Source of the DNA: Streptomyces sp. SAT1
Lineage (GTDB): Bacteria > Actinomycetota > Actinomycetes > Streptomycetales > Streptomycetaceae
Assembly: GCF_001654495.1 (NCBI RefSeq)
Contig: NZ_CP015849.1
Location: forward strand, 7,295,001 to 7,359,000
Reading direction: 5' to 3'
Length of the DNA stretch: 64,000 nucleotides
The notes under the pieces: model-generated
Told to the model about the DNA's origin: nothing
Seen by the model: only the letters and a program-made list of their open reading frames with translations
Databases searched by the model: none
In this document: positions 1 to 24,519 of the stretch, one piece after another
Layout: every line of letters starts with the position of its first letter
Position numbering within the stretch: position 1 is the stretch's first letter
Program-made: the position numbers and the translations under genes

Positions 1-806
1 TGGCCATCGGCGGCGTCGGACTGGCCGCCGGATACTGGCGCCGGGACGAGGACAACCGGCGGCGGTTCATCCGGGACCCCGTCGGCGACGACCCCGAGGC
101 GCGCCTCTATCTGACCGGTGACCTGGTGCGGCTCAACGGCGACGGCCGCCTCGTCTACGTCGGCCGCGCCGACAAGCAGGTCAAGATAAATGGCGTGCGG
201 ATAGAGATCGGCGAGATCGAGAGCGTCATCCGCGCCTTCGACGGGATCCGCAACGTGTACGTCCAGGTCCAGCAGGCGCAGGACCACAAGAGGGTCGTCG
301 CCTACTGCGCCACCGGCGGAGCACCCCACGTGTCCGAGGCGGCGCTGCGGGAGCACTGCCGCAGGTATCTCGTGTCCACGATGGTGCCGAGCACCTTCCT
401 GGTGCTGGACGAACTGCCGATCAACGCCAGCGGGAAGATCGACGAGCGTGCCCTGCCCGGTGTCGACGCCACCGCCGAGCCGGAGCCCGAGGAGCAGCTC
501 AGCGACGTCGAACGGCAGATGCTGACCAAGGCGTTCGGCCCGATCCTCGGCCGCACCGACTTCGCCAAGAACGTCAGCTTCTTCGACCTGGGCGGGACCA
601 GCCTGCAGGCCGCCCAGCTGGTCTCCAAGATCAAGAAGATCTTCGCCACGGACATCTCCCTGGCCGCGTTCTTCGCTGACTCCAGCGTTCGGAGCATGGC
701 CCTGGAGGTGGAACGGGCCCGGCTGGCCGGCCTGCCCCCCGAGGAACTCGAGAAGGTCATCGAGCAGATGTCCGAAGAGGACGTTTCCCGACTCCTGGCC
801 GAGTGA
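1..806 (+). CDS. NRPS adenylation-carrier (A-PCP) protein, C-terminal part
   Basis: This is the 3' end of a nonribosomal peptide synthetase gene whose start lies left of the window; the reading frame is open from base 3. The visible part starts in the adenylation C-terminal region with the YLTGDL core motif. It continues with GRADKQVKINGVRIEIGEIE (A8, which carries the hinge), then LPINASGKID with the A10 lysine, and then a carrier domain with the phosphopantetheine site LGGTSLQA. After the carrier there is only a short helical tail (EELEKVIEQMSEEDVSRLLAE), with no condensation or thioesterase domain. The adenylation pocket is outside the window, so its substrate cannot be read. The thioesterase fusion gene follows after about 37 bases, suggesting one operon and a shared carrier-bound intermediate. 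Confidence 0.9.
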   Translation, partial: AIGGVGLAAGYWRRDEDNRRRFIRDPVGDDPEARLYLTGDLVRLNGDGRLVYVGRADKQVKINGVRIEIGEIESVIRAFDGIRNVYVQVQQAQDHKRVVAYCATGGAPHVSEAALREHCRRYLVSTMVPSTFLVLDELPINASGKIDERALPGVDATAEPEPEEQLSDVERQMLTKAFGPILGRTDFAKNVSFFDLGGTSLQAAQLVSKIKKIFATDISLAAFFADSSVRSMALEVERARLAGLPPEELEKVIEQMSEEDVSRLLAE

Positions 807-843: not shown

Positions 844-3495
844 ATGCAACGTGAAGGGGAACGCCTGAACGCCTATCTCCGGACGAGATCGGCGGGGGCG
901 GACACAACGAGTCTCATCGAACTGAGCCGGCCGGACTCCTCCGGCCAGGTGCTCCTGTTCGCCCACCCGGTGGGCGGCAGTCTGCTGGCCTACCAGCCGC
1001 TGGTCCGCCGGCTCGGCGACCACCGGTGCTTCGGCCTCGAAGCCTCCGCGAGGACACTCGCCGACGGCGGACCCGCCGAGTCGATGCAGGAACTGGCCCG
1101 GCGGTACGTCGAGAGCTTCGCCGGCCGGGGACCCGAGGTCGACCTGGTGTGCGGCTGGTCCTTCGGCGGCGCCCTCGCCTGGGAGATCGCCTGCCTGCTC
1201 GCCGCCCGGGGACGCCGCCCGAGGGTGGTGCTCCTCGACTCGACGTGGTCGGGCGGCGTCTACCCGCGCTGGACACCCGGCGAGGCGGTACGGGCCTTCG
1301 TGGACGACGTGTCCAGGCTGAGCGGACGCGACGGCGAGAGCGCGCCGGACACCCGCGCGGAGGCCGCCGCCGCACTCGACATGGACCTGGAGACGTTCAC
1401 CGAGCGCTTCGAGATCTTCGAGCACAACAGACGGCTCATCTGCGAGTGGGAGCCCACACCGGGAGACCTCGACATCGTCTCCGTACGCGCCGTGGAGTCC
1501 GCCAAGTGCGACTGGCGCACGGTCACTTCGGGCGGCGTGCGCTTCCAGGACCTGCCCGGCGACCACTACGGCCTGCTCCGGGACGACGGCAACCTCGCCG
1601 CCATCGAACGGGCCGTCCGGGACGAGCCCCCGGCAGCGGCGGCAGCCGTCCCGCACCCGGACGGCCCGGCGGCCGAGGCCGACGGTGCCGCTCTGCACGC
1701 GTCGCTGAAGCAGCTCGTGGACACACCCCACTGGCGCGACCTCGTGATCAGGGCCCGGCGGATGGACCCCGACGCCATCACCGAGGCGTACCGGGAACTG
1801 GGCCGGCGCGGACTGCTCACCCCGGACTGGCCGAGCGAGTACGGCGGCGCCGGAACACCGACGCGCCGCGCCATCGAGCTCTTCGAGGGCTTCTCCTCGA
1901 CCGGGCTGCCGGACCTGGTGTACGCGCTCACCGTGCAGATCGTGGGCAACTTCGTCCTGAAGTCAGGCTCCGAACGGCTCAGGCGCGAGCTGCTCCCGTG
2001 CATCGCCCGCGGTGAGGAGTTCGCCACCGTCCTCTACAGCGAACCGCGCGCCGGGAGCGACCTCGCGGCGCTGCGGACCAGGGCGGAGCGCCGGGGCGAG
2101 AACTATGTCCTCAACGGCGTCAAGGTGTTCAGCATCTACAGCGACATCGCGGGTTCGGCGCTGGTGGCCGCGCGCACCGGCCAGGACGGGCACAAGTACG
2201 ACGGCATCACCCTCTTCGTCATCGACCTGGCGGCCGACGGCGTGAGCGTCGAACTCGTCCAGACGGTGCAACGCGAACGGATGTGCCGCGTACGCCTCCA
2301 CGACGTCGAGGTCGAGAGCTGGCGCCGGGTGGGCGACGAGGGCCGCGGCTGGGCCCTGCTCGACGGCGCCCTGGCCATCGAACGCACCGGCATCGACCAT
2401 GTCGTCAGGGCGGCCCGCTGGCTGAAGGCGCTGCACACCACGACCGCGCCCTCCGAGCGGCTGCGGCGGCTGGAGGGCCAGGTCGAGTGCGCCACGACCC
2501 TGGCACGCGCGGCCACCGAGGTGTTCCTGCGCGCCGACGTCAGGGCCACCGACACCGCCGTCGCCAAGCTGTACACCAGCGAGACCTGCCAGCAGGTCGG
2601 ACACGAGGTGCTGCGCCGCTGGAGCACCCTCGCCAGCGCGCCCGGCGCGGACGACCTGGTCCACGAGGAACTCTTCTCGGCGCTGACCGAGTCGCCCGGA
2701 CTGACCCTGTCCGCCGGCACGTCGGAGATGATGCTGTCCACCCTCTCGGCGGACCTCAAGGAGGAGTGCTCCCGGCGCTGCCTGGAGATCCTGCACCGCT
2801 TCGGCGGCGACCTCGTCGACACCGTCGTGGAGGTCCTCGAACCAGAGGGCGCCCGCATCAAGGCCGAGCCGCTGTTCGCCCACTCGGACGAGCGGCGCGA
2901 GGCGCTGGCGAAGACCCTCACCGACCTCGGCTTCGACCTGGTCGAACGCCCGGAGGAGGCGGGCGGCCTCGGACTCGGCCTCACCGCCGGCTGCGGCATC
3001 AGCCTCGGCATGGGCTACCTCGGGTACGAGAACGCCTACACCCCGCACCACTTCGCGGGCGACGGCGGCACGCAGACCCCGCACGGCCCGTGCCCGGAGC
3101 GCGCGTGCAAGCTGCGCCACGCGGCCTACGTCCTGGGCCTTGGCGTCGGCCTCTTCCGCACCGCGTGGGAACACGCCGTCACCCGGGAGCAGTTCGGCCG
3201 CCGCCTGGTCGATCACGACTCCCTGATGTTCCCGCTGATCCGCGGCTACGCCGAGCTGACCGCCCTGGGCGCGCGGCTCCACGAACTCGCCGAGCACGCG
3301 CAGAACGTGGACGAGGACGCCGTACGGCGCTTCGAACTGGTGGAACAGGACGCCCTGGTGCGCGTCGTGCGCAGCGCCATGCAGGTGCTGGGCGCCCAGG
3401 GCATCACGGAGTGGTCGGTCGCCTCGCGCTTCTACATGAAGTGCGCGCAGAACATGGGACTCCTGGACCACGAGGGCAGGGTGGCGGACGGATGA
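844..3495 (+). CDS. Thioesterase / acyl-CoA dehydrogenase (double) fusion protein
   Basis: An 883-residue protein joining functions that are normally separate. Residues 1-260 are an alpha/beta-hydrolase thioesterase of the NRPS/PKS type: HPVGG oxyanion region, GWSFGG with nucleophile Ser106, and GDHYGLL with likely catalytic His241. Residues about 285-660 are a complete acyl-CoA dehydrogenase, with YSEPRAGSDLAAL in the flavin/substrate region and the typical C-terminal SAGTSEM. Residues about 665-883 are a second, shortened dehydrogenase-like unit: part of the N-terminal helical domain and the C-terminal helical bundle (TREQFGRRLVD), without the middle beta-barrel. In related systems such dehydrogenases oxidise aminoacyl-S-carrier substrates, and here the neighbour is an A-PCP. 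I infer alpha,beta-desaturation of a carrier-bound amino acid plus editing or release. GTG 841 is an alternative start; ATG 844 is better spaced from AGGGA. Confidence 0.85.
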   Translation: MQREGERLNAYLRTRSAGADTTSLIELSRPDSSGQVLLFAHPVGGSLLAYQPLVRRLGDHRCFGLEASARTLADGGPAESMQELARRYVESFAGRGPEVDLVCGWSFGGALAWEIACLLAARGRRPRVVLLDSTWSGGVYPRWTPGEAVRAFVDDVSRLSGRDGESAPDTRAEAAAALDMDLETFTERFEIFEHNRRLICEWEPTPGDLDIVSVRAVESAKCDWRTVTSGGVRFQDLPGDHYGLLRDDGNLAAIERAVRDEPPAAAAAVPHPDGPAAEADGAALHASLKQLVDTPHWRDLVIRARRMDPDAITEAYRELGRRGLLTPDWPSEYGGAGTPTRRAIELFEGFSSTGLPDLVYALTVQIVGNFVLKSGSERLRRELLPCIARGEEFATVLYSEPRAGSDLAALRTRAERRGENYVLNGVKVFSIYSDIAGSALVAARTGQDGHKYDGITLFVIDLAADGVSVELVQTVQRERMCRVRLHDVEVESWRRVGDEGRGWALLDGALAIERTGIDHVVRAARWLKALHTTTAPSERLRRLEGQVECATTLARAATEVFLRADVRATDTAVAKLYTSETCQQVGHEVLRRWSTLASAPGADDLVHEELFSALTESPGLTLSAGTSEMMLSTLSADLKEECSRRCLEILHRFGGDLVDTVVEVLEPEGARIKAEPLFAHSDERREALAKTLTDLGFDLVERPEEAGGLGLGLTAGCGISLGMGYLGYENAYTPHHFAGDGGTQTPHGPCPERACKLRHAAYVLGLGVGLFRTAWEHAVTREQFGRRLVDHDSLMFPLIRGYAELTALGARLHELAEHAQNVDEDAVRRFELVEQDALVRVVRSAMQVLGAQGITEWSVASRFYMKCAQNMGLLDHEGRVADG

Positions 3496-4879: not shown

Positions 4880-5458
4880 ATGAGTGAATTCGTCACCACT
4901 GTTGTCGGACCGGACGACTGGCCCGCCGTCAGCGAGTTCTTCGAACCGAAAGGACTCGTGGAGAACTGCTGGTGCACCTACTTCCGGATGACGTCGAAGG
5001 AACGCTCCGGCTGTGGCACCGCGGCACGCCGGGACCGGCTGCGCGACCTGGTCACGTCCGGCGAGCGGGTGGGCGTCCTCGGCTCGGTCGACGGCGTCCC
5101 GGCCGGCTGGCTCGGGGCCGGTCCCCGCTCGGCCTTCCCGCGGCTGCGCGGATCCCGGGCGGCGAAACCGATCGAGGGCGACGACCCCGAGCGCATCTGG
5201 TCCATCGTGTGCCTCTACCTGGCCCGTGAGCACCGCCACCGGGGACTGGTGAAGGTGCTCGTCGACCGGGCGGTCCAGTGGGCGCGGGAGGAGAAGGCGG
5301 AATTCATCGAGGCATTTCCCGAGGACGACCGCGATCCCGGGGCCGCATTCGACCGCCACAGTTTCCACGGCCGGGTGAGCACCTTCGAGTCCTGCGGATT
5401 CACCGTCGTCGAACCCCGCCTGCAGCGCAGAGCCTTGGTACGGAAGGATCTCCGTTGA
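4880..5458 (+). CDS. GNAT-family acetyltransferase
   Basis: A 192-residue protein with the GNAT layout: an N-terminal strand-helix region, a central sheet (WSIVCLYLAREHRHRGLVKVLVDRAVQWARE) carrying the acetyl-CoA pyrophosphate loop as REHRHRGL, and a C-terminal strand segment ending in ESCGF. The start is well supported by GGAAGG eight bases upstream of ATG 4880. The stop overlaps the TTG start of the next gene, so it is translationally coupled to the presumed aziridine-forming pair. Two roles fit: N-acetylation of a reactive amino group as a protecting step in the pathway, or self-protection. I cannot tell which from sequence. Cysteines near the N-terminus (NCWCTYF, then SGCG) are a visible oddity. 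Confidence 0.8.
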   Translation: MSEFVTTVVGPDDWPAVSEFFEPKGLVENCWCTYFRMTSKERSGCGTAARRDRLRDLVTSGERVGVLGSVDGVPAGWLGAGPRSAFPRLRGSRAAKPIEGDDPERIWSIVCLYLAREHRHRGLVKVLVDRAVQWAREEKAEFIEAFPEDDRDPGAAFDRHSFHGRVSTFESCGFTVVEPRLQRRALVRKDLR

Positions 5459-6039
5459 CAGTTCACAAGATGCTCGTGCTGGAGCCGTTCCTGAACAACC
5501 AGGCGGCGACCACACCCGACAATCTCGCCGACGGCCGGCTGAACATCTGGCGGAACTCGCTCCCGGCGCGGAGCGAGCCGCTGGAGGTCGTCGTGGACGG
5601 TGTGCCGCTGCGCAGCGCACCGCTCGACGGGCGGGGCCCGGACAACGTGCTCTGCTCGGGACAGCGGATAGCGGTACCCGAGCGGCGCTGGGACTGGCTC
5701 TATGTCATCGGCTGCGGCGAGCGGCGGGTCAGAGACGTCCTCACCTGGCACTTCTCCAACGGCTCGGTGGACCGCGACCACTTGGCGCTCTCCGACCTGT
5801 GGGAGGGCCGGTCCGGCTACGGCGAGGAACTCGCGCTGCGCACCGACGTCATCCACTACCCGTACCACGTGCAGGAACGCATAGGGATCACACTCTGGTG
5901 CCAACGTGTGCCGATCACCTCCCGGCAGCCGCTCGGCGCCATGTCACTGCCCAAGAACCCGGCCGTGCACCTCTTCGCCATGACGCTGGTCGGCCGGCGG
6001 GCGGACGGCCGGCCGGCGGACGAAGGGGACCAGTCGTGA
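5455..6039 (+). CDS. Candidate small subunit of aziridine-forming enzyme (Vzb10/11, AziU3/U2-like)
   Basis: A 194-residue protein in which I recognise no common enzyme motif. It appears beta-rich, with conserved-looking blocks such as NNQAATTPDNLADGRLNIWR and DWLYVIGCGERRV. Published work on vazabitide and azinomycin identifies a two-protein complex (Vzb10/11, AziU3/U2) with no similarity to known enzymes that makes the aziridine by sulfate elimination. This gene and the next have the position, pairing and pathway context expected for that complex, but the assignment is inference because no alignment was possible. The start is probably TTG 5455: GGAAGG lies seven bases upstream and TTGA overlaps the GNAT stop. 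ATG 5470 is the alternative. The stop overlaps the next gene's GTG start. Confidence 0.6.
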   Translation: MTVHKMLVLEPFLNNQAATTPDNLADGRLNIWRNSLPARSEPLEVVVDGVPLRSAPLDGRGPDNVLCSGQRIAVPERRWDWLYVIGCGERRVRDVLTWHFSNGSVDRDHLALSDLWEGRSGYGEELALRTDVIHYPYHVQERIGITLWCQRVPITSRQPLGAMSLPKNPAVHLFAMTLVGRRADGRPADEGDQS

Positions 6040-7112
6040 ACGCAGGCGGTACGACCGGGACGGCGCTGCGCACTCCGCGGTGGAACGGCACCACCGGCAC
6101 CTACCCCCAGTGGTACGAGGACCCGCTGAGCTGCCTGCAGACCACCCTCGGCAGCATCCTGCTGGAGCACGGTCTGCGGCCGGTCGAAGTGCTCGGCCAC
6201 GCCTGCGAGTTCGCGTTCGCGCCCGACGACGCCATGTGCGAGGAGTTCTACCGCCCCGCGCAGAGCAGCCGCGGTGTGGCGGCCGACCTGTGCCCCTACC
6301 ACGACGTGGAGTCGGCCTGGACGTCCGGGAAGGACGCCGACGACCTGATCGGCCTCATCGAGGAGCACGCCGCCGTCATCGTCGCGGTGGACAACTACCA
6401 TCTGCCCTTCCGGCCCGCCTACCACGACGTGCACGCGGCCCACCTGGTCGTGGTGCCCGCCTGGCGGCGCACCGGCGGCGGACAGGTGGAGTTCTACGTC
6501 TCCGACGCCCAACCGCCGGGATTCCAGGGGTGGCTGGCCGCCGAGCACCTGGTGGAGAGCTGGACGTCCGGCAACCCCACCGACACCCAGGACGTGTTCT
6601 TCTCCAGCCGGGAGATCGGCGGCCGGGTGCTGACCGTGAAGGTGCGGCCGGAACCAGGACCGCTCACCGACGACCAGGTCGTACGGGCGCTCAGGGGCAA
6701 CCTAGACAAGTGGGACACCGGCACGGCAGGCCCCGCCGACCGCGTCTGGACCGGCCGCAGCGGGCTGCGCCGGTTCGTCGAGCGGCTGGAGGAGCACAGT
6801 GCCGACCCGGCCCGGCTGCGGCCCGCGTACACCTTCGGCTGGGCGATGCAGGCGCAGGCGTACCTGCACGGGCGGTTCGCCCAGGGGTGCGCGCTCCGCA
6901 CGCGCCCCGGCCATCTGGCCGAGGTAGCGGCCTCGGCGGACCGCGTCGTCTCCGCCTGGTCGAACGTACGGCTGCTGAGCGCGCACGCGGCACACACCCC
7001 CGGGGCACCGGAACTGATCCGGCGGCGCGGCGAAGAGCTGACGCACGCCTACGAGCAACTGGCCGTCGACTGGCGGCTCGCCCTGTCGACGGAACGGACG
7101 GACGCCTCATGA
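6036..7112 (+). CDS. BtrH-N-like protein; candidate large subunit of aziridine-forming enzyme
   Basis: A 358-residue protein. Its N-terminal half resembles the butirosin BtrH N-terminal family: DPLSCLQTTLGSILLEHG with a cysteine, then VDNYHLPFRPAYHD followed by HAAHLVVVPAW, and a strand-rich VEFYVSDAQPPGFQG segment. The C-terminal half is helical with no motif I recognise. It is coupled to the upstream gene by a GTGA overlap and to the downstream aminotransferase by ATGA, so the pair is probably made in fixed ratio. By context it is the likely partner in a Vzb10/11- or AziU3/U2-type complex that displaces sulfate with the C6 amino group. The BtrH-like resemblance is from memory of motif order. 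A thiol-dependent acyltransferase role is the main alternative. Confidence 0.6.
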   Translation: MNAGGTTGTALRTPRWNGTTGTYPQWYEDPLSCLQTTLGSILLEHGLRPVEVLGHACEFAFAPDDAMCEEFYRPAQSSRGVAADLCPYHDVESAWTSGKDADDLIGLIEEHAAVIVAVDNYHLPFRPAYHDVHAAHLVVVPAWRRTGGGQVEFYVSDAQPPGFQGWLAAEHLVESWTSGNPTDTQDVFFSSREIGGRVLTVKVRPEPGPLTDDQVVRALRGNLDKWDTGTAGPADRVWTGRSGLRRFVERLEEHSADPARLRPAYTFGWAMQAQAYLHGRFAQGCALRTRPGHLAEVAASADRVVSAWSNVRLLSAHAAHTPGAPELIRRRGEELTHAYEQLAVDWRLALSTERTDAS

Positions 7113-8374
7113 ACGGCGCAGCCGCGGACACCCTGGCGCTCACCGGGGGCGAGCCCGTACTGGGCACGCTCGCGCCGGTGGACTGGCCGAAGACGACGGA
7201 CGCCGACCGCGCAGCGGTGCTCTCGGTGCTGGACTCGAACGTCTTCGTCTCCGACCGCACCGGCGGTCCGACCGCCGTCGAACGGCTGGAGAGAGCCTGG
7301 GCCGACTACTTAGGCGTACGGCGCTGCGTCGGCGTGAGCAACGGCACCACCGCGATCGAACTCGCCCTGCTGGCCCACGGGGTGGGCCCCGGCGACGAGG
7401 TCGTCGTCCCCGCGCTGACCTTCGTCGCCACGGCGATGGCCGTGGTGCATGTCGGGGCGACACCCCGCTACGCCGACGTCGACCCGGTCACCTTCACCAT
7501 GTCACCGCGGAGCCTGGCCGCGCAGATCACCGGGCGGACCAAGGCCGTCGTCCCGGTGCACCTGCACGGTCTGAGCGCCGACATGGAGGCGATCGGCGAC
7601 ATCGCGCGCCGCCACGGCTGCGTGGTGGTCGAGGACGCCGCGCAGGCCCAGGGCGCCCGCTACCGGGACACCCTGTGCGGCGCGTCCGGCAACACCGCCA
7701 CCTTCAGCCTCCAGATGACGAAGAACCTCCCCACCTGCGGAGAAGGCGGACTCGTCGTCACCGACGACGACGGCGTGGCCGACCGGATCGTCCAGTTGCG
7801 CCAGTTCGGCGAGACCATCCGCGCGGACCGCCCCCGGCGGTACGTGAGCCACCGGCTCGGCTTCAACGCCAAGCTGAGCAACGTCCAGGCGGCCTACACC
7901 GCCAGCCAGTTGGAGCGCTTCGAGGAGTACCACGCGGCCCGCAGGTCCAATGTCGCCGCCTTCCTGGCGCGGCTGGAGCACCTGGACGGCCTGCGGTGCC
8001 CGGCGGAGCCCGAAGGGTACGAGCACGCGTGGCACATCCTGCGGTTCGTCGTCGACCTCGGCCGGCTCCTGCCCGGCGCGGACACCGCGACGGCGCGGAA
8101 CCTGCTGATCCGGGCCCTGCGCGCCGAGGGCCTTCCGGCGACCAGGTACCAGATGATGCCGGTCCCCGAGCAGCCCGCGCTGCGGTCCATATGCCCCCAG
8201 GAGCCGGGCTCGTGGCCGGTCACCCAGGACGTCGTCGACCGCAGCTTCACCCTCCAGCAGCGCCATCTGCCGCCCGACGCCGGGCCGTTGCTCCAGGACT
8301 TCGCCGATGTCCTGGAGAAGGTCTGGTCGCATCTGAAGGTCCTGGCGGAACTCGCGGAAGGTGCGGACCGCTGA
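7109..8374 (+). CDS. DegT/DnrJ/EryC1-family PLP aminotransferase
   Basis: A 421-residue sugar-aminotransferase-type enzyme. Visible family signatures are VSNGTTAIELAL, DEVVVPALTFVATA, the PLP-contacting VVVEDAAQAQGA, and the Schiff-base lysine in QMTKNLPTCGEGG. In the DADH route an aminotransferase converts the ketone formed after two-carbon transfer into the C6 amine while the substrate is still on the carrier protein, and this gene stands directly before the transketolase genes. ATG 7109 overlaps the previous stop (ATGA). Codon 68 is a TTA leucine codon, very rare in Streptomyces genes. Confidence 0.92.
   Translation: MNGAAADTLALTGGEPVLGTLAPVDWPKTTDADRAAVLSVLDSNVFVSDRTGGPTAVERLERAWADYLGVRRCVGVSNGTTAIELALLAHGVGPGDEVVVPALTFVATAMAVVHVGATPRYADVDPVTFTMSPRSLAAQITGRTKAVVPVHLHGLSADMEAIGDIARRHGCVVVEDAAQAQGARYRDTLCGASGNTATFSLQMTKNLPTCGEGGLVVTDDDGVADRIVQLRQFGETIRADRPRRYVSHRLGFNAKLSNVQAAYTASQLERFEEYHAARRSNVAAFLARLEHLDGLRCPAEPEGYEHAWHILRFVVDLGRLLPGADTATARNLLIRALRAEGLPATRYQMMPVPEQPALRSICPQEPGSWPVTQDVVDRSFTLQQRHLPPDAGPLLQDFADVLEKVWSHLKVLAELAEGADR
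7310..7312 (+). promoter_or_regulatory. In-frame TTA codon (likely bldA-dependent translation point)
   Basis: Leu68 of the aminotransferase (context DYLGVRR) is encoded by TTA. In Streptomyces TTA is read only by the bldA tRNA and marks developmentally controlled genes. It is the only in-frame TTA I noticed in the window's genes. Because the flanking genes are start/stop coupled, failure here should also lower expression of the downstream transketolase and carrier-protein genes. Confidence 0.8.
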
Positions 8375-8382
8375 CCAGATCC

Positions 8383-9258
8383 GTGCACGAGCCGGCGGCA
8401 CGCGAACAGCTGGAACACCACGCCCACCGCGTGCGGGAGCACATCGTCGAGATGTGCTCCGGCCCCGAGGGCGGCCACCTGGGCGGATCGATGTCCTGCG
8501 TGGAGATCCTGGTGGCGCTGTTCTTCCACACGATGAACGTCGACCCCGCCGACCCCGGACGGCCCGAGCGGGACATGTTCGTCCTGAGCAAGGGCCACGC
8601 GGCGATGGCCCTCTACGCCGTACTCGCCGAGCGCGGCTTCATCGCGCCGGAGGAGATCGGCACCTTCTGCCGCCCCGGCGGCAGACTGGCCACCCACGGC
8701 AACGTCGCCGTCCCCGGCGTCGAGTTCGCCACCGGCTCCCTCGGCCACGGCCTCGCCCTCGCCAACGGCACCGCCTGGGCGCAGCGCCGGCACAGCGGGA
8801 CACCCGCGCGCACCTATGTGCTGCTCGGTGACGGCGAGTTGCAGGAAGGATCCGTATGGGAGGCGGCCCAGGTCAGCCGCGCCCTGAACGCCGGGAACCT
8901 CGTCGCGGTGATCGACGTCAACGGCTTCCAGCAGACCGGGGCCGTCGGCGAGGTGAGCCCCGGCGCGCCCGTGGCCGACCGGTGGAACGGCTTCGGCTGG
9001 CACACCGTCGAGGTGGACGGACACGACCCGGCGGCCCTCTGCGCGGCCTTCGAGGAGGCGGCGGAGACGGACGGGCCGACGGCGGTGGTCTGCCGCACGG
9101 TCAAGGCGCAGGGCACCGGTGTCCTCGCGGGCCGGGCCGTCTCCCACTTCGTCCGGCTCGACACCGCGAAACGCGCACGCGTCCTGGCCGGCCTGCGACG
9201 GACGGCCCCGCTCGGCGGCACGAACGGCGGCACGAAGGGAGCGCCCGGCCATGCCTGA
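8383..9258 (+). CDS. Transketolase, N-terminal (pyrophosphate-binding) subunit
   Basis: This is the thiamine-diphosphate pyrophosphate-domain half of a split transketolase (about 291 residues). Visible are GGHLGGSMSCVEIL, the LSKGHAAMALY segment, SLGHGLALANG, and the ThDP/Mg motif GDGELQEG followed by IDVNGFQQTG. In DADH biosynthesis a two-subunit transketolase adds a two-carbon hydroxyacyl unit to the carrier-bound glutamate semialdehyde. GTG 8383 is given as start. A CTG at 8371 is a serious alternative because GGAAGGTG lies seven bases upstream and CTGA would overlap the aminotransferase stop. The stop overlaps the start of the C-terminal subunit. Confidence 0.9.
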   Translation: MHEPAAREQLEHHAHRVREHIVEMCSGPEGGHLGGSMSCVEILVALFFHTMNVDPADPGRPERDMFVLSKGHAAMALYAVLAERGFIAPEEIGTFCRPGGRLATHGNVAVPGVEFATGSLGHGLALANGTAWAQRRHSGTPARTYVLLGDGELQEGSVWEAAQVSRALNAGNLVAVIDVNGFQQTGAVGEVSPGAPVADRWNGFGWHTVEVDGHDPAALCAAFEEAAETDGPTAVVCRTVKAQGTGVLAGRAVSHFVRLDTAKRARVLAGLRRTAPLGGTNGGTKGAPGHA

Positions 9259-10180
9259 GGTCACAGCGGAGCGGGCGAGCACCCGTGCCGCCTTCGCGGA
9301 CGCCCTGCCGGAACTCGTGGCACGGCACGGCGTACTCGTCGTCGACACCGACACCGGCAGCGTCAAACCGACAGCTGAGATGGATTACCTCAACGTCGGC
9401 ATAGCGGAGAACGCCGCCATCGGGCTCGCCGCCGGTGCCGAGCACTGCGGACGGCGCGCGCTGGTCTGCACATTCGGTGCCTTCGCCGTCAGCCGGGCGT
9501 TCGAGTTCATCAAGCTCGACATCGCCTATCCGCGGCGCCGGGTGTGCATCGTCGGCACCCACGGCGGCGCCAGCGGAGGCTGGCTGGGGCCGACCCACCA
9601 CGCCACCGAGGACCTGGCCCTGATGAGCGCGCTGCCCCACATGCGCGTCGTCGTCCCGGCCGACGCGCACCAGACGGCGCCGCTGCTGGAGCAGTGCCTG
9701 CGCCACGACGGCCCGACCTACCTGCGGCTCGGCCGCAAGGCGTCGCCGCTGTTCGCGGGCTTGCCCGTACCGGAACTGGGCGTGCCCCAGGTGGTCCGGA
9801 CCGGCCGCGACATCGCCCTGGTCGCGACGGGACCCGAGATGCTCTCCATCGCCCTGGACGTCGCCCGCGCCCTGGCCGACGAGGGACACAGCGCCCAGGT
9901 GGTCAACGTCCACACCGTCGACCAGGAGGCCGCCGCCGCGACCGGACGGGCCCTCGCCGGGGAGTGCCGTCTGCTGGTCACGCTGGAGGAGGCGTGGACC
10001 TCCGGCGGAATGGGCGCGCAGCTCGCCGCGGCGGTCGGAGCCCGCGGCATCCCGTGGCTCCCGATCGGCGTCACCGGCTTCCTCCCACCCGGCACCCACG
10101 CGTCCCTGCTGGAGGCCGGCGGGCTCACCGCCGACTCCGTGCTCCGCCAGGTGCTGAAGTTCGTCACCGACCCGCGATGA
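9251..10180 (+). CDS. Transketolase, C-terminal (pyrimidine-binding) subunit
   Basis: The second half of the split transketolase (309 residues), carrying the pyrimidine-binding and C-terminal domains. MDYLNVGIAENAAIGLAAG contains the conserved glutamate that activates thiamine, followed by the GTHGGASGG and GPTHHATEDLALM segments. The last third (DIALVATGPEM, LLVTLEEAWTSGGMGAQL) is the typical transketolase C-domain. It begins inside the last codons of the N-subunit gene, so the two subunits are coupled and expected to form a heteromeric enzyme. Split transketolases occur in several natural-product clusters; next to a LysW-like carrier the function is well constrained to C5 to C7 extension. 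Confidence 0.9.
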   Translation: MPEVTAERASTRAAFADALPELVARHGVLVVDTDTGSVKPTAEMDYLNVGIAENAAIGLAAGAEHCGRRALVCTFGAFAVSRAFEFIKLDIAYPRRRVCIVGTHGGASGGWLGPTHHATEDLALMSALPHMRVVVPADAHQTAPLLEQCLRHDGPTYLRLGRKASPLFAGLPVPELGVPQVVRTGRDIALVATGPEMLSIALDVARALADEGHSAQVVNVHTVDQEAAAATGRALAGECRLLVTLEEAWTSGGMGAQLAAAVGARGIPWLPIGVTGFLPPGTHASLLEAGGLTADSVLRQVLKFVTDPR

Positions 10181-10254: not shown

Positions 10255-10422
10255 ATGGACACGCAGTGCGTCAGCTGCGCCGGCCCGTTGCAGATACCGG
10301 CGGACAGCTATCAGGGGGAGATCGTGAGCTGTCCGGGGTGCGCGGCGGAACTGGAGATCCAGTCGACGGCCCCGCTGGCCCTGGCGATCGCGCCCGAGCC
10401 CGAAGAGGACTGGGGTGAGTGA
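10255..10422 (+). CDS. LysW-like amino-group carrier protein (AmCP)
   Basis: A 55-residue acidic protein. It has two zinc-binding CxxC pairs (Cys5/Cys8 and Cys26/Cys29) and the diagnostic C-terminal EDWGE. In this family the gamma-carboxyl of the terminal glutamate is ligated to the alpha-amino group of the substrate, which is then processed while protein-bound. Five neighbouring genes (ligase, kinase, reductase, aminotransferase, deacylase) are the expected partners. ATG 10255 is favoured because AAGGGA lies eight bases upstream. ATG 10177 would give an 81-residue form with an N-terminal segment encoded by the 11-bp repeats. The stop overlaps the ligase GTG. Confidence in the family is high because of EDWGE. 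Confidence 0.95.
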   Translation: MDTQCVSCAGPLQIPADSYQGEIVSCPGCAAELEIQSTAPLALAIAPEPEEDWGE

Positions 10423-11302
10423 CCGCCCGGGAAGACGACAGCGGCCGCTCGGGATCCTCCTGTCCACCGTCCGCCACGAGGAGCGCCGCCTTCTGGACGA
10501 ACTGGAACGCCGCGACATCCCCGCGGTCCGGCTCGACCCCCGCACCCTGTCCTTCGCACCACGGGACGCCGAGCGGCTGCGGGGCATGCGGGTCCTGAAC
10601 CGGGAGATCTCCAGCCAACGGGCCGCGCTCACGGCGGAGTCGCTGGAAGCGTTCGGCGCGCACCCGGTGAACGGCGCGACCGCGAGCCGGGTGTGCGGCA
10701 ACAAGTGGTCCACCTATGTGCGGCTGAGGCAGCTCGGCATCCCCACCCCGACGACGCTGCTGGCGCCGTCCCCGGAAGCCGGGAGGAAGGCGATCGAGGC
10801 GGTCGGCTACCCGGCCGTGGTCAAGCCCCTCAGCTCGTCGTGGGGCAACCGGGTCAGCCTGATCACCGACCGGTACGCGGCCGACGCCGTGCTCGAACAC
10901 TGCGCCGCGCTGCCCTCGGCGGTCACACGGACGGTGATCGTGCAGGAAGCGGTGAGACCCGGCGCGCCGGACATTCGGGGCATCGTGGTCGACGGTGTCT
11001 GCCTGGGCGTCATCGTCCGGGCGGGCGGCGACTGGCGCAACAACGTGGCCCGGGGAGCGACGGTGGAGCAGCACCCGCCGGACGAGGAGATCCAGCGGCT
11101 GTGCGTCCGGGCGGCGGCCGCCGTGGACGCCCGGATCGCCGGGGTGGACCTGGTCGAGGGCGCGGACGGGCGCCACCTGGTGCTGGAGGTGAACTCCCGC
11201 GTGGAGTTCCAGGGGTTCGAACGGGCGACGGGTGTCGATGTCGCCGCGCGGATCGTGGAGGCATGTGTGTCCGAGCCGACCGATGTGAAGGTGCCCGTAT
11301 GA
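10415..11302 (+). CDS. LysX-like ATP-grasp ligase (AmCP-glutamate ligase)
   Basis: A 295-residue ATP-grasp enzyme expected to attach the amino group of glutamate to the C-terminal glutamate of the adjacent carrier protein. ATP-grasp features are visible: a central NKWSTYVRLRQLGIPTP, GYPAVVKPLSSSWG with the nucleotide-binding lysine, and EVNSRVEFQGFERATGVDV near the C-terminus. The last block corresponds to the LysX/ArgX metal-binding region (usually VEFKN). In this pathway class the substrate is glutamate rather than aminoadipate; the VEFQGFE variation may reflect substrate choice, but that is speculative. GTG 10415 overlaps the carrier stop; ATGA couples it to the reductase. Confidence 0.92.
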   Translation: MSDRPGRRQRPLGILLSTVRHEERRLLDELERRDIPAVRLDPRTLSFAPRDAERLRGMRVLNREISSQRAALTAESLEAFGAHPVNGATASRVCGNKWSTYVRLRQLGIPTPTTLLAPSPEAGRKAIEAVGYPAVVKPLSSSWGNRVSLITDRYAADAVLEHCAALPSAVTRTVIVQEAVRPGAPDIRGIVVDGVCLGVIVRAGGDWRNNVARGATVEQHPPDEEIQRLCVRAAAAVDARIAGVDLVEGADGRHLVLEVNSRVEFQGFERATGVDVAARIVEACVSEPTDVKVPV

Positions 11303-12309
11303 AGCGCGTCGCGGTGGTGGGCGGCAGGGGATTCGTGGGCGGCGAGCTGCTTCGCCTGCTCGTCCACCATCCCGGGGTCGAGGTCACCGCCGTGACCTCG
11401 GACACCCACGCCGGCAAGGCGGTGGAGAGCGCGCACCCGCCGCTGCGCGGCAGCGGGCTGCGCTACAGCGGACGTGCGGACCTGGAACCGGCCGACCTCG
11501 TCTTCCTCGCCGGGGTGCACGGCTCCACGGCGAAGATCCTCGACGAGATGACCGCGCTCGCACCGAAGATCGTGGACCTGACCGCCGACTTCCGGATCGA
11601 GGACGGCGCCCTGATGGAGCGCTACTACGGCTGGCGGCGCGAGGGGGAGCACGCCAGGGCCTTCGTGCGCGGCCTGCCCGAACTCCACCGCAAGCAGATC
11701 ACCGACGCGAACCGGGTCGCGGTCCCCGGCTGCATGGCCACCAGCGCGATCCTGAGCCTCGCGCCGCTCGCGGCCCGGGGTCTCCTGGAGGAGGTGCAGA
11801 TCGACGCGCGCACCGGCAGCAGCGGCTCCGGCGCTTCCGGCGGCCCGGCCAACTCCCATGCGCTGCGCAGCGGTGTGCTGCGGGTGTTCGCGCCGTTCGA
11901 CCACCGGCACGAGGCGGAGGTCGTCGAGGCGCTGGGTGTCGGGGCATCCATGACGGTCACCGCGACACCCCAGGTGCGCGGCGTGCAGACGGTGACCAAG
12001 GTGGCCGTCGGCGAGGTGAGCGAACGCGAACTGCTCGCCATGTACCGCGAGGACTACGCCGCCGAGCCGTTCGTCCGCCTGGTGAACAGCCCGCGCGGCA
12101 CCTACCGCTACCCGGACGCCAAGGTCCTGCTCGGCTCGAACCACTGCGACGTCGGGATCGTCGCCGACCACCGCGGCAGAGCGCTCGTGATGGGCGCGCT
12201 CGACAACCTCATGAAGGGAGCCGCGGGCGGCGCGGTCCAGTGCATGAATCTCATGCTCGGTCTCCCGGAGACGTGCGGTCTGACGTTTCCCGGCCTGCAT
12301 CCGGTGTGA
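11299..12309 (+). CDS. LysY/ArgC-like AmCP-glutamyl-phosphate reductase
   Basis: A 336-residue NADPH-dependent reductase of the N-acetyl-gamma-glutamyl-phosphate reductase family. It has an N-terminal Rossmann motif VVGGRGFVGGELLRLL, the catalytic cysteine in VPGCMATSAIL, and TGSSGSGASGGP typical of the family. Together with the kinase it is expected to turn carrier-bound glutamyl phosphate into the semialdehyde that accepts the two-carbon unit from transketolase. It overlaps the ligase by ATGA and the kinase by GTGA. A role in ordinary arginine synthesis is unlikely because no argJ/argD/argF neighbours are present and it sits inside the AmCP operon. Confidence 0.92.
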   Translation: MKRVAVVGGRGFVGGELLRLLVHHPGVEVTAVTSDTHAGKAVESAHPPLRGSGLRYSGRADLEPADLVFLAGVHGSTAKILDEMTALAPKIVDLTADFRIEDGALMERYYGWRREGEHARAFVRGLPELHRKQITDANRVAVPGCMATSAILSLAPLAARGLLEEVQIDARTGSSGSGASGGPANSHALRSGVLRVFAPFDHRHEAEVVEALGVGASMTVTATPQVRGVQTVTKVAVGEVSERELLAMYREDYAAEPFVRLVNSPRGTYRYPDAKVLLGSNHCDVGIVADHRGRALVMGALDNLMKGAAGGAVQCMNLMLGLPETCGLTFPGLHPV

Positions 12310-13136
12310 ACACGATGAGACTCGTGGTGAAGTGGGGCGGCAGCCTCCAGGAGGACAGCGCACGGCTCGCCGACGACATCGCCGCCCTCAGCGGCGGCCA
12401 CCGCGTCACCGTGGTGCACGGCGGCTCCCGGGACATCGACGACACCCTCGGCGAACTGGGGCTGCCGCGGCGCACCTTGCGCTCCCCGGACGGGATGGTC
12501 ACGCGGTACACGGACGAGCCGACGCTCGGCGCGCTCATGATGGCGATGCGCGGCCGTACCCAGGCGCGGATCGTCTCGGAACTGGCCGCACGCGGTGTGA
12601 CGGCCGTGGGCCTGTCGGGAATGGACGGGGGGCTGGTGCGCACCGTACGCAAGGCGGCCGTCCGCGCGGTCTTCGACGGCGCCGTGCGCGTGGTGCGCGA
12701 CAACCTCGCCGGCCGGATCACCGGTGTGGACACCGCCGTCCTGGACGCGGTGCACACCTGCGGCATGGTCCCCGTCGTGTGTCCCCCGGGCATGACCGCC
12801 GACGGCCAGGCGACCAACGTCGACGCGGACCGGATGGCCTGCGCGATCGCGGCGGCCTGGCAGGCGGACCGGCTGCTCCTGTTCACCGACGCGCCGGGCG
12901 TCCTCGCCGACCCCGCCGACCCCTCGTCCGTCATCGCCGCACTGAGCCGCGACGAGGCGAGACGGCTGGTGCCGGAGCTGACGGGCGGCATGCGGATGAA
13001 GGTCGCCGCCGCGGTGGAGGCCCTGGAGAACGGCGCGCAGGCGGTACAGGTGTGCGACGGACGGGTGGACTCGCCCGTCGCGAAAGCTCTACGAGGGAGC
13101 GGAACCCTCATCGGGAAGGGTCTTGGCACGCCGTGA
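12306..13136 (+). CDS. LysZ/ArgB-like AmCP-glutamate kinase
   Basis: A 276-residue amino-acid kinase. Visible are LVVKWGGSLQ (phosphate-binding KxGG), TVVHGGS, AVGLSGMDGGLV, and the nucleotide-side segment ATNVDADRMACAIAAAWQADRLLLFTDAPGV. It should phosphorylate the side-chain carboxylate of glutamate attached to the carrier protein. Its sequence differs clearly from the second argB-type gene in this window (56579-57508), which has the conventional acetylglutamate-kinase form. GTG 12306 (GTGA overlap with the reductase stop) is used; ATG 12315 is an alternative three codons in. The stop overlaps the deacylase start. Confidence 0.92.
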   Translation: MNTMRLVVKWGGSLQEDSARLADDIAALSGGHRVTVVHGGSRDIDDTLGELGLPRRTLRSPDGMVTRYTDEPTLGALMMAMRGRTQARIVSELAARGVTAVGLSGMDGGLVRTVRKAAVRAVFDGAVRVVRDNLAGRITGVDTAVLDAVHTCGMVPVVCPPGMTADGQATNVDADRMACAIAAAWQADRLLLFTDAPGVLADPADPSSVIAALSRDEARRLVPELTGGMRMKVAAAVEALENGAQAVQVCDGRVDSPVAKALRGSGTLIGKGLGTP

Positions 13137-14221
13137 CGATCGAACATCTCAGCACCCAGAAAAGCGAGTTGACCGACGCCGAAGCCGTCGGACTGCTCGC
13201 CGAGGCAGTGGCGACACCGTCCGTCTCCGGCGACGAGCGGCGACTGGCCGAGCGGCTGCGGCACATCGCGGCCCAACACGGCGCGCGGAGCCACATCGAC
13301 GAGGTGGGCAACGTGCACGCCCTGGTCGGCCGCGGCCCGCGCACGGTCGTGCTCCTCAGCCACCTGGACACCGTGCCGGGCGCCGTCCCCTTCGAGCACA
13401 CCGCGACCCTCGTCCGCGGGCGCGGCGCCGTGGACGCCAAGGGACCGCTGGCGGCCATGCTGGTCGCCGCGCTCAGCAGCCGCGACCTCGGCATCCGCGT
13501 CCACTGGGTGGGCGTCGTCGAGGAGGAGACCCTGTGGTCCCGGGGCGCCGAACACGTCCGCCGGACCGTGCCGGTGCCCGACGCCGTCATCGTGGGGGAA
13601 CCGAGCGGTGCCTCGGCGGTGACCATCGGCTACAAGGGAATGGCCGAGTTCGAGGTGCGGTGCGAGGTCCCGCGCACCCACACCGCCACCCCCGGGCCCA
13701 AGGCCGGCGAGATCCTGGTACGGGCGCTCGGCCGGCTCCTCGACACCTACGGGACCCGGGGCAACGCGAACTTCGGCGACGTCGGCATGGTCGTCAGGGA
13801 CGGCCGCCTCGAACCGTTCTCGAGTGCGTGCTCCCTCGTGTTCCGCACACCCCCGGGCCTCTCGCCCGAGGAACTGCTGCGGCAGGTCACGGCGACCCTC
13901 GGCGAGGGGATCGACGTCGTCCCGGTGTACGACGTACCCGCCGTCATGGTGCCGCGCGGTTCCGCGTGCGTACGCGCGCTGACCCGCGCCATCCGCCTCG
14001 AAGGGTTCCGGCCCGCGCACAAGCTCAAGACGGGCACCAGCGACATGAACACGCTCAGCAGGAGCTGGCAGGTGCCGATGGCCACCTACGGCCCCGGGGA
14101 CTGCCATCAGGACCACACCGACACCGAGCACATCCTGGTCCAGGAGTACCTGGACGGCATACGGATCCTCCGCACGGCCCTGCGCGAACTGGACAACTCC
14201 TTCCGAGAGGCGGCCTCATGA
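13133..14221 (+). CDS. LysK-like metallopeptidase releasing product from AmCP
   Basis: A 362-residue zinc deacylase of the LysK/ArgE type (M20). It shows LLSHLDTVPG (metal ligands), RGAVDAKGPLAAM, VVEEETLWSRGAEHV with the general-base glutamate pair, VGEPSGASAVTIGYKG, and a late GDCHQDHTDTEH segment supplying the remaining ligand. It should cleave the gamma-glutamyl amide and free the finished diamino acid (DADH if the pathway model is right) from the carrier. Its place at the end of the carrier operon, just before the sulfotransferase, suggests that sulfonation follows or is coupled to release. Overlaps are GTGA at the start and ATGA at the end. Confidence 0.9.
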   Translation: MTIEHLSTQKSELTDAEAVGLLAEAVATPSVSGDERRLAERLRHIAAQHGARSHIDEVGNVHALVGRGPRTVVLLSHLDTVPGAVPFEHTATLVRGRGAVDAKGPLAAMLVAALSSRDLGIRVHWVGVVEEETLWSRGAEHVRRTVPVPDAVIVGEPSGASAVTIGYKGMAEFEVRCEVPRTHTATPGPKAGEILVRALGRLLDTYGTRGNANFGDVGMVVRDGRLEPFSSACSLVFRTPPGLSPEELLRQVTATLGEGIDVVPVYDVPAVMVPRGSACVRALTRAIRLEGFRPAHKLKTGTSDMNTLSRSWQVPMATYGPGDCHQDHTDTEHILVQEYLDGIRILRTALRELDNSFREAAS

Positions 14222-14967
14222 CGGAGCGGCAGCCGGACCTCCTGGCGCTGTGGTGCGTACCGCGCTCGCGGTCGACCGCGTTCGAGCGCGCGATGTACGA
14301 GCGCGGCGACTTCCTGGTGGTGCACGAGCCGTTCTCGCGCGTGTGCGACTTCGGCACCGCCGAGGTCGCCGGCCGTACCTGCACCGGCCAGGAGCAGGTG
14401 ATGGCCGCGCTCGCCGACGCGGCGGCCGACCGGCCCGTCTTCTTCAAGGACACCACCGACTTCGCCCTCGACCGGCTCGCCGCCGACCCGGCCTTCCTGA
14501 AGCGGTGCCGGCACGCCGCGATGGTCCGCAACCCCCGCGACACGGTCCGCTCACACCTGAGGATGCAGCCCGACGCCACCTCCGCGGCGATGGGCTTCGG
14601 ACACCTGTGGGACATCGTCTCGACCGTGACGTCCTCGGGGCTGCCCATGCACCTGGTCGACGGCGACCGGGTGGCCGGTGACCCGGAGACGGAGATGCGG
14701 CGGTACTGCGCGGCCATGGACATCGCGTTCCTGCCCGAGTCGCTCGCCTTCCGCAAGGAACCGCCGCCCAGCTGGCGGGCGACCGGGCGCTGGCACGCCG
14801 GCGCCAGTGAGTCCAGCGCGCTCGGAGCCGCCCCGGCCGGGAAGGGCACCCTGCCGGACGAGCTGGAGCGGACCGCCGCCGCCTTCGAGCGCGACCAGCT
14901 GCCGTACTACGAGCTGATCACGGCGGCCCTGGGCAGGGACGGCGACCACGAGCCCGAAGTTCCTTGA
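14218..14967 (+). CDS. PAPS-dependent sulfotransferase
   Basis: A 249-residue sulfotransferase-family protein. The N-terminal LLALWCVPRSRSTAFERAM matches the PAPS 5'-phosphosulfate loop (PRSxST). VFFKDTTDFALD is the usual lysine-containing segment, and AAMVRNPRDTVRS is the 3'-phosphate-binding RxPRD block. It should transfer sulfate to a hydroxyl, presumably C7-OH of the diamino-dihydroxy acid, creating the leaving group for aziridine closure. CysC, CysD and CysN within the same cluster would supply PAPS. It ends the tight run of overlapping genes that begins at 4880. The following 125 bp contain no gene. Confidence 0.9.
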   Translation: MTERQPDLLALWCVPRSRSTAFERAMYERGDFLVVHEPFSRVCDFGTAEVAGRTCTGQEQVMAALADAAADRPVFFKDTTDFALDRLAADPAFLKRCRHAAMVRNPRDTVRSHLRMQPDATSAAMGFGHLWDIVSTVTSSGLPMHLVDGDRVAGDPETEMRRYCAAMDIAFLPESLAFRKEPPPSWRATGRWHAGASESSALGAAPAGKGTLPDELERTAAAFERDQLPYYELITAALGRDGDHEPEVP

Positions 14968-16796: not shown

Positions 16797-17072
16797 GTGA
16801 CCGAGAACCGCGACGTCGTGTGCAAGGTCGAGTACGAGCCACCCGCGGACGAACTGGAGGAGGTGCTCGCCGCCGTCATCGCGGAGGTGCTGGACGTCGA
16901 CCAGGTCGGCCGGCGCGACAGCTTCTACGACCTCGGCGGCGCGTCGCTGTCGGCCATCCGGATCTGCGCCCGCATCGAACGCCGCCTCGGCATCCGCGTC
17001 GACCCCGCATGGCTGCTCGAACACGACGAACTGGCCGACTTCGCCGAGCAGATCAGGCTCGGTGCCGCGTGA
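16797..17072 (+). CDS. Discrete peptidyl carrier protein
   Basis: A 91-residue single-domain carrier protein with the phosphopantetheine attachment motif FYDLGGASLSAIRI (serine of GGAS). AGGAG lies just upstream of GTG 16797. The stop overlaps the start of a free-standing adenylation protein, so the two are probably made together and form an A/PCP loading pair. A discrete C protein follows. Such split modules often activate one amino acid for a coupling or tailoring step. Confidence 0.93.
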   Translation: MTENRDVVCKVEYEPPADELEEVLAAVIAEVLDVDQVGRRDSFYDLGGASLSAIRICARIERRLGIRVDPAWLLEHDELADFAEQIRLGAA

Positions 17073-18595
17073 GCGAGCCGACGAACACGCCGCCGCTGCG
17101 CAGTGTGCACGCCGCGGTCATGGAGCACGCCGCCACGGCACCCCGCGACCTCGCCCTGGTGCACGGCGGCGAACGCATCGACTACCGGACCCTCACCGAC
17201 GCGGCGGCGGCACTGGCCGGGCAGCTCACCGCATGGGGCGTACGGCCCGGCGACATCGTCCCGCTGCTGGTACCGCGCGGCGCCCAACTGGTCGCCCTCC
17301 AGCTCGGCGTGCTGATGAGCGGCGCCGCCTACGCCACCCTCGACCCGCGCTGGCCCGCCCCCCGCGTCGAGTCGATCCTCCGCCAGCTCGACCGCCCGGT
17401 CGTCGTCGGCCGTCCCGGCGGCGAACCCCTCGGCGTCACCCGGGCCCTCGACCCGGTCCCCCTGGCCGCGATCGCCGGGGCCGCGCGGGCGGACCGGCCC
17501 GAGCCGGCGCATGTCGCCCTGGACGATGTGGCCATGGTGTTCTTCACCTCGGGCAGCACAGGTATCCCCAAGGGTGTGCTCATACCCCACCGGGCGGTCA
17601 CCCGGATGTTCGGACCGGGCGGCCTGGACGGTTTCGGACCCGGACACATCACCCCACAGGTCGCGCCCGCCGCCTGGGACATGTACGCCTTCGAGCTGTG
17701 GGGCCAGCTCACCACCGGCGGCGCCGTGGTCGTCGTCGACGAGAACCACCTCATGCCCAGCCGGCTGCGCTCCCTCGTCGCCGACGAGCAGATCGACACG
17801 GTCTGGCTCACGACCTCGCTGTTCAACCTGGTCGTCGACGAGGACCTGGACGCCTTCGAGGGGCTGAAGACGCTCTACGTCGGCGGCGAGAAGCAGTCCC
17901 CCCGCCATGTCGAGATGTTCCTGCGGCGCTTCCCCTGCCTGCCCCTGTGGAACGGCTTCGGCCCGGCCGAGAACTGCATGCTCACCACGGTCCACCGGAT
18001 GGGACCGGGCGACAGGAACGCCCCCGCGGGCATCCCGGCGGGTGTGCCGGTGCCCGGCACCACGGTGATCCTGCTGCGCGAGGACGGCTCACCGGCACCG
18101 CGCGGCGAACGCGGTGAGATCGTCGCACTCGGCCCCGGAGTGGCCCTGGGCTACCTCAACGACGATCTCCTCACCCGCGAGAGGTTCCCGGAACTGCGCG
18201 TGGCGGGCGAGAAGCGCCGCGCCTACCGCACCGGCGACATGGGAGTGTTCGACGACGACGGCGTCCTGCACTTCCACGGCCGCCGGGACCGGCAGGTCAA
18301 ACTGAGCGGCAACCGGATCGAACTCGGCGACATCGAGGCCGCCGCGTCCACCGTCCCGCAGATCCGCACCTGCGCCGCCGTGGCGCGCACGGACGAGGGC
18401 GGCACCGTCGCACACATCGCGCTGGTCTACACCCTCGCCGAGGGCGGCGAGCTGACCCCGCGGGAGCTACGCGCGGCACTCGGCGCACTGCTTCCCGCCT
18501 ACGCCGTCCCCGGCAGGTTCGAGCAACTGGACGACCTGCCCCGCAGGGAGAACGGCAAGGTCGACCTGCCCGCTCTGGAGAGGCGCCGGGTGTGA
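17069..18595 (+). CDS. Discrete NRPS adenylation protein
   Basis: A 508-residue stand-alone adenylation domain with all core motifs: FFTSGSTGIPKG (A3), a GFGPAEN variant of A5, YRTGDMG (A7), GRRDRQVKLSGNRIELGDIE (A8) and RRENGKVD with the A10 lysine. Specificity positions read by hand against PheA give approximately D-M-F-W-Y-G-G-M-L-K. The D-x-F-W-x-G-G frame recalls valine-type pockets, but three positions are unusual, so the substrate is uncertain. It likely charges the preceding discrete carrier protein, whose stop it overlaps; its own stop overlaps the C-protein start. Confidence 0.92.
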   Translation: MSEPTNTPPLRSVHAAVMEHAATAPRDLALVHGGERIDYRTLTDAAAALAGQLTAWGVRPGDIVPLLVPRGAQLVALQLGVLMSGAAYATLDPRWPAPRVESILRQLDRPVVVGRPGGEPLGVTRALDPVPLAAIAGAARADRPEPAHVALDDVAMVFFTSGSTGIPKGVLIPHRAVTRMFGPGGLDGFGPGHITPQVAPAAWDMYAFELWGQLTTGGAVVVVDENHLMPSRLRSLVADEQIDTVWLTTSLFNLVVDEDLDAFEGLKTLYVGGEKQSPRHVEMFLRRFPCLPLWNGFGPAENCMLTTVHRMGPGDRNAPAGIPAGVPVPGTTVILLREDGSPAPRGERGEIVALGPGVALGYLNDDLLTRERFPELRVAGEKRRAYRTGDMGVFDDDGVLHFHGRRDRQVKLSGNRIELGDIEAAASTVPQIRTCAAVARTDEGGTVAHIALVYTLAEGGELTPRELRAALGALLPAYAVPGRFEQLDDLPRRENGKVDLPALERRRV

Positions 18596-21426: not shown

Positions 21427-21428
21427 AG

Positions 21429-24281: not shown

Positions 24282-24519
24282 GATCGCATCGTAGGCGCAC
24301 TGCCTGAAGTCCGGCCACGCACGGTCCCTCGGCCCACTTCACACGTATGCTGAGGGCCAGCCGAAGACATGTGTTTCGGGAACCCGGCCCGACAGGGACG
24401 ACGTCCGCTATAGGGTGTGCGCAGATGTGAGGCGCGGGCACACATACACGGGTACCCGGCCGACCGGGACCACCGGGCCGTGAGCCATGCCGAGAACCAC
24501 TTCCACCGAGGAGCGAGCA

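Follow-up and report, generated by a model that had tools for sequence, protein, structure and literature searches.

What does a protein do that joins a thioesterase (TE) to one complete and one partial acyl-CoA dehydrogenase (ACAD), and how did such a chain arise? The question is raised by the open reading frame at 844-3495 (plus strand) of a 64,000-nucleotide stretch from Streptomyces sp. SAT1 (contig NZ_CP015849.1, positions 7,295,001 to 7,359,000), referred to here as the window. Our analysis supports the view that the product is likely a single-chain, TE-linked oxidase of the Fic32-33 type that completes 1-azabicyclo[3.1.0]hexane (ABCH) rings. The frame starts at GTG or ATG (841/844), encodes 884/883 amino acids, and holds, in this order, a TE, a complete ACAD, and a second ACAD devoid of the middle domain. 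Pfam matches on the whole protein comprise Thioesterase at residues 38-250 (5.9e-15), Acyl-CoA_dh_N at 307-392 and Acyl-CoA_dh_M at 398-489, followed by the C domain of the first ACAD and, at 759-867, by another C domain. When the final 310 residues were scanned by themselves, the C domain (5.5e-16) was found together with an N domain of marginal score (0.005), and a middle domain was absent. We accordingly divide the protein into a TE unit (aa 1-271, 844..1656, plus strand; PF00975), a complete ACAD unit, alpha (about aa 291-640, 1714..2763, plus strand; phmmer and model match), and a truncated ACAD unit, a minimal beta (about aa 641-883, 2764..3492, plus strand; phmmer and Pfam).

The coding pattern runs unbroken across all units, with third-position GC of 0.90-0.96. 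A frameshift or assembly artefact is ruled out, because full-length copies with about 78% identity occur in Streptomyces sp. NRRL S-646 (L009) and S. roseicoloratus (L010), and a fourth is present in another genome (L090). The domain order that an earlier note had read from this DNA is thus borne out by the reading frame, the Pfam matches and the copies in other genomes. In all four species alpha and beta lie in one reading frame rather than in separate genes, a difference of organisation and not of mechanism from their relatives.

The closest structural relative of both ACAD units is PDB entry 8HK0, titled 'Crystal structure of Fic32-33 complex from Streptomyces ficellus NRRL 8067'. The alpha unit matches chain A (8hk0_A; phmmer E 2.7e-63, 40% identity) and the beta unit matches chain C (8hk0_C; E 1.5e-12). 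Fold searches, which covered model residues 1-363, placed the predicted alpha model nearest to 8hk0_A (Z 43.2, 2.2 Å over 354 residues; runner-up entry Z 37.4), and a second predicted model gave the same answer (Z 40.6; runner-up 35.4). Alpha has a complete N-M-C ACAD fold and, on these matches, the two ACAD units are orthologues of Fic32-33, the first of chain A and the second of the chain C type. As reference for the antibiotic ficellomycin we used locus L095, which carries the crystallised proteins, since a 338-aa stretch of 8hk0_A lies wholly within its alpha gene and three stretches of 8hk0_C are contained in its beta gene. In the producer's own genome, the other matches to the alpha unit are ordinary ACADs with 29-36% identity, and no second alpha/beta pair of the Fic32-33 kind was found there.

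The surroundings of the gene fit this relationship. Like the Fic32-33 genes, the fusion adjoins a C-A-PCP nonribosomal peptide synthetase (NRPS) in an amino-group-carrier and aziridine cluster. Downstream, all on the plus strand, lie homologues of the aziridine-forming proteins AziU2 (5470..6039; 7wuw_A, E 3.8e-36) and AziU3 (6036..7112; 7wuw_C, E 1.1e-49), a DegT/DnrJ-type aminotransferase (7109..8374; Pfam 8e-92), the N and C subunits of a transketolase (8383..10180; Pfam), a LysW-type amino-group carrier protein ending in EDWGE (10255..10422; Pfam Zn_ribbon_LysW 8e-13), a block encoding a LysX ligase, a LysY-type reductase, a LysZ-type kinase and an M20 peptidase (10415..14221; Pfam), and a sulfotransferase that may act in C7-O sulfation (14218..14967; Pfam Sulfotransfer_5 2e-5). 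Free-standing PCP, A and C domains (16797..19896; Pfam) are followed by an APS kinase (CysC), a CysD-like and a CysN-like protein (19916..22745; Pfam for CysC and CysD), which would supply PAPS; the CysN-like call rests on our reading of the sequence and on its match to the neighbouring genes of relatives. This gene set corresponds to the established pathway for making the aziridine precursor (review: PMC9570651), and at least 29 of the 34 loci with an alpha gene have one or more azabicycle marker genes within about 10 kb. The azabicycle cluster suspected in the earlier note is therefore supported by its gene content.

Between the fusion and the aziridine genes lie a cytochrome P450 (3604..4830, plus strand; Pfam p450 7e-22), presumed to act in tailoring, and a GNAT acetyltransferase (4880..5458, plus strand; Pfam). 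Each of the four fusion clusters has both genes after the fusion, and neither stands beside the ficellomycin oxidase genes of L095. By analogy with azinomycin, these two enzymes could hydroxylate and acylate the azabicycle.

We propose that the amino-group carrier pathway would deliver a diamino-dihydroxy-heptanoic acid, which would be sulfated at C7-O and then converted to an aziridine by the AziU2/U3-like pair, and that the upstream C-A-PCP protein would be loaded with the resulting aziridine amino acid. The alpha half, with FAD bound and Glu513 as base, would then remove the alpha hydrogen as a proton and the beta hydrogen as a hydride, giving a 2,3-unsaturated aminoacyl-PCP, and addition of the aziridine nitrogen to C3 would close the five-membered ring. 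We infer the desaturation of the PCP-bound amino acid and the attack at C3 from the characterised homologue. A 2023 study in JACS by Cheng et al. reportedly found that alpha,beta-dehydrogenation of an NRPS-bound aziridine amino acid starts closure of the second ring; from its title and date, we take it to be the paper describing 8HK0. Going by that title, as given in PMC11880133, the paper (doi 10.1021/jacs.2c12507) concerns the unfused enzyme. Carrier-bound alpha,beta-desaturation followed by addition of the aziridine nitrogen, as put forward for this locus in the earlier note, is thus chemistry already known, since it has been published for the two-protein version. The substrate itself may have shifted, because alpha shares no more than about 40% identity with Fic32-33 chain A and its branch in the tree is long.

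A different outcome of the same desaturation deserves attention. The oxidase could be a dehydroamino acid synthase that yields an azabicycle with the azinomycin-type C2=C3 double bond, with a second oxidation that either follows ring closure or takes its place. Azinomycin has that double bond, azinomycin proteins are the relatives of the aziridine-forming pair whose structures have been solved, and the P450 and GNAT genes directly downstream would suit an azinomycin-like decorated ring. However, the closest characterised oxidase is that of ficellomycin, which to our knowledge lacks a C2=C3 double bond of this type, and the cluster holds just one such oxidase. We consider this outcome unlikely, and ring completion remains our preferred reading.

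The second question concerns the attached TE. Its motifs GWSFGG, LLDST and GDHYG carry Ser106, Asp132 and His241, respectively, as the probable catalytic triad. In most of the azabicycle-cluster genomes tested, the best match to this TE genome-wide is the terminal TE of the NRPS beside alpha, and this holds in 10 genomes with such a TE; in one further genome (G124) the best match is a free TE beside alpha. By this measure, the domain and the terminal TE of the cluster NRPS are orthologues. The C-terminal part of the upstream NRPS occupies 3..806 (plus strand; Pfam) and ends without a TE. The whole gene begins before the window (L026:7186-10806) and encodes a C-A-PCP protein of 1206 aa, so that the A and PCP domains described earlier are present, and the protein that bears them also has a C domain. 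In 9 of 9 genomes tested, the azabicycle NRPS is the protein that it matches best genome-wide, with 655-728 bits in separate-gene clusters vs at most 486 for other NRPSs.

These matches allow the fusion to be compared with the layout found in most relatives, in which an NRPS (C-A-PCP-TE), alpha and beta are three genes; here they are an NRPS (C-A-PCP) and a TE-alpha-beta protein. In 20 relatives the gene before alpha encodes an NRPS of roughly 1280-1390 aa that ends in a TE (by coordinates, with Pfam confirmation for L095), and in most of these 20 alpha and beta lie one base apart (TGA-N-ATG). A further group has a free TE gene directly before alpha (Pfam-confirmed for L082 and L085). Because the best matches of both the TE and the NRPS fall in azabicycle clusters, we read the order PCP-TE-alpha-beta as common to these loci, with only the reading-frame borders moved and beta reduced in size. 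The preserved order, with only its frame borders changed, suggests that the TE and the oxidase serve one carrier protein, and the origin of the TE in an NRPS leads us to expect that this N-terminal domain would release the product from the same PCP.

In this respect, the TE might instead be an editing enzyme of type II, with no role beyond clearing misloaded carriers, its fusion to the oxidase being fortuitous. Free TEs are often editing enzymes, and some azabicycle clusters do have a free TE directly before alpha (L082, L085). Nevertheless, no further TE is present in the upstream NRPS, and the best match in most relatives is the NRPS's own terminal TE, which makes an editing role improbable compared with product release. 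It is tempting to speculate further that desaturase and TE are coupled in cis, with ring closure gating release, such that the TE would dock on the PCP, deliver the oxidase to the same substrate, and free only the azabicycle, while beta, made up of two helical domains and lacking the beta-barrel, would be smaller than any other working ACAD partner known; we offer this extension tentatively, as a possibility somewhat stronger than the editing role and well short of our main proposal.

How, then, could the two ACAD units make one active site? All 34 alpha sequences keep a helix-G glutamate within ERTG, which in the fusion is Glu513 (AIERTG; 2380..2382, plus strand), the predicted catalytic base at the position seen in IVD and LCAD. 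The J-K loop glutamate of MCAD-type enzymes is absent from the fusion's alpha (loop LSAGTSE), and relatives have Ala, Ser or Gly at that position, which rules out canonical MCAD-type catalysis; the two base positions are explained in PMC11153573. The flavin motif EPxxGSD is kept in the alpha sequences, with Ala in place of Gly in five. The reverse holds for the second unit, which has no recognisable catalytic base and carries an R.Q[FS]G motif whose R.Q is invariant in 32 of 32 beta sequences; in the alignment, R..FG occurs in none of the 34 alphas. In ordinary ACADs, this Arg-x-Gln motif touches the FAD of the neighbouring subunit. In the fusion it is TREQFG (aa 780-785; 3181..3198, plus strand), where Arg781 and Gln783, judging from the family, presumably contact the alpha-bound FAD. 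Since the flavin motif and the helix-G Glu lie in alpha and R.Q lies in beta, the halves appear complementary, and neither alone is expected to form a working flavin site. Beta, reduced to its helical N and C domains, would act as a non-catalytic scaffold and hold the ADP side of FAD through Arg781 and Gln783. The strict partition of motifs thus favours the pseudo-dimer with one dead half that had been suggested for this protein, and we expect a quaternary structure of (alpha-beta)2.

The reduction of beta is pronounced. Between its N and C parts, the fusions have 23-28 residues (24 in this protein), vs 79-150 in the 28 stand-alone relatives aligned and 115 in Fic32-33, in agreement with the missing middle region noted before. 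All stand-alone relatives therefore keep a middle-domain-sized segment, perhaps a non-essential one, that the fusion lacks. A first AlphaFold run (pTM 0.58) gave a confident alpha and a poor second half, because the alignment was shallow there; a balanced alignment lifted the pTM to 0.75 and brought the C domain of beta to a pLDDT of about 72-87. The short N part of beta was of low confidence in both runs. When all alpha and beta rows were pooled, the latter aligned to the alpha half and the set proved unusable, and reading through the one-base gap between alpha and beta served only for viewing the paired alignment, not for folding.

Similar divisions of labour are known elsewhere. The ficellomycin heterotetramer shares with the fusion orthologous alpha and beta units, the catalytic Glu and the split of FAD motifs; it differs in consisting of two separate proteins with no TE attached, whereas the fusion is one chain with a TE at its N-terminus. 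PigA, AnaB and ColB1, which are among the fold matches to the alpha model, also have the ACAD fold and oxidise carrier-bound amino acids. They are single-unit enzymes, neither split nor fused, that act on proline or cysteine and close no ring onto an aziridine. Heteromeric steroid ACADs hold the flavin ring and the catalytic Glu in one half and the ADP part in the other (PMC11153573). ChsE4-ChsE5, ChsE1-ChsE2 and Tcur3481-Tcur3483 resemble the fusion in this split, and 6wy8_B matches the alpha unit (Z 36.8, 26% identity); unlike the fusion, the steroid enzymes use steroid-CoA substrates, consist of separate subunits and have no TE. No steroid genes were seen near the fusion locus; its best structural match is Fic32-33 and its cluster is of the azabicycle type, which sets it apart from steroid catabolism. 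Finally, CasC of Rhodococcus jostii, a bile-acid ACAD, consists of two fused ACAD domains, one catalytic and the other needed for FAD (PMC8399759). In CasC the non-catalytic domain comes first, the reverse of the fusion, the substrate is a CoA thioester, and that account mentions no TE.

The chemistry, the two-protein enzyme and fused heteromeric ACADs, in the opposite order in CasC, are thus known already. The open-access literature searched gave no account of an azabicycle oxidase in a single chain, of such an oxidase joined to a TE, or of a beta without a middle domain, and this fused, TE-linked, minimal-beta form appears to be undescribed. The fusion is a rare, pared-down rearrangement of a known machine and brings no new reaction. 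Whereas the known enzyme must join two proteins and find its NRPS in trans, the fusion packs both halves and the TE in one chain. It would offer a one-gene tool for the azabicycle warhead, a strained and DNA-damaging ring, and its minimal beta is a natural test of what a non-catalytic ACAD partner contributes.

Proteins of this architecture, 880-890 aa long, were found in four Streptomyces species. A draw of genomes from the order yielded three other species with the fusion, two of them being the genomes behind L009 and L010, and no further copies turned up in a 393-genome draw of the genus or a 396-genome draw of the phylum (E <= 1e-50). The same fusion outside natural-product loci would have weakened the earlier proposal; in the genomes searched, no copy lay outside azabicycle clusters. 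The fusion alphas form one clade (100/100) on a long branch, from which we read a single origin of the fusion. S. roseicoloratus (G551) apparently holds a pair of azabicycle clusters, of which L010 encodes the fused oxidase and L089 has alpha and beta as separate genes; the fusion therefore marks a distinct cluster lineage and not a quirk of one species. Between the window and L009, third- and second-position differences in the alpha unit number 97 and 25, a pattern of purifying selection. A decaying ACAD relic beside a TE that alone still works, as the loss of beta's whole middle domain and the low-confidence model of its N part might suggest, is very improbable, given that the truncation is common to four species with catalytic motifs kept and 85% identity in alpha, that third-position changes are in excess, and that no other such pair was found in the producer's genome.

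The fusion could also serve as a marker for finding more azabicycle clusters. Clusters of this type with alpha and beta genes are fairly common in Streptomyces (L078-L109), and several with a different layout (L083, L085, L088 and L103-L106) may lead to new azabicycle products. Just past the cluster described here lie a squalene/phytoene synthase gene (23373-24281, minus strand) and a catalase gene (24487-25983). Further along, positions 33268-55000 hold a second cluster that resembles a hydroxamate siderophore system, with a formyltransferase (33268-34212, minus strand), an ornithine/lysine N-hydroxylase (34621-35910), a periplasmic binding protein (39234-40244) and a 3638-aa NRPS with matches to three A, four C and three PCP domains (42083-52999).
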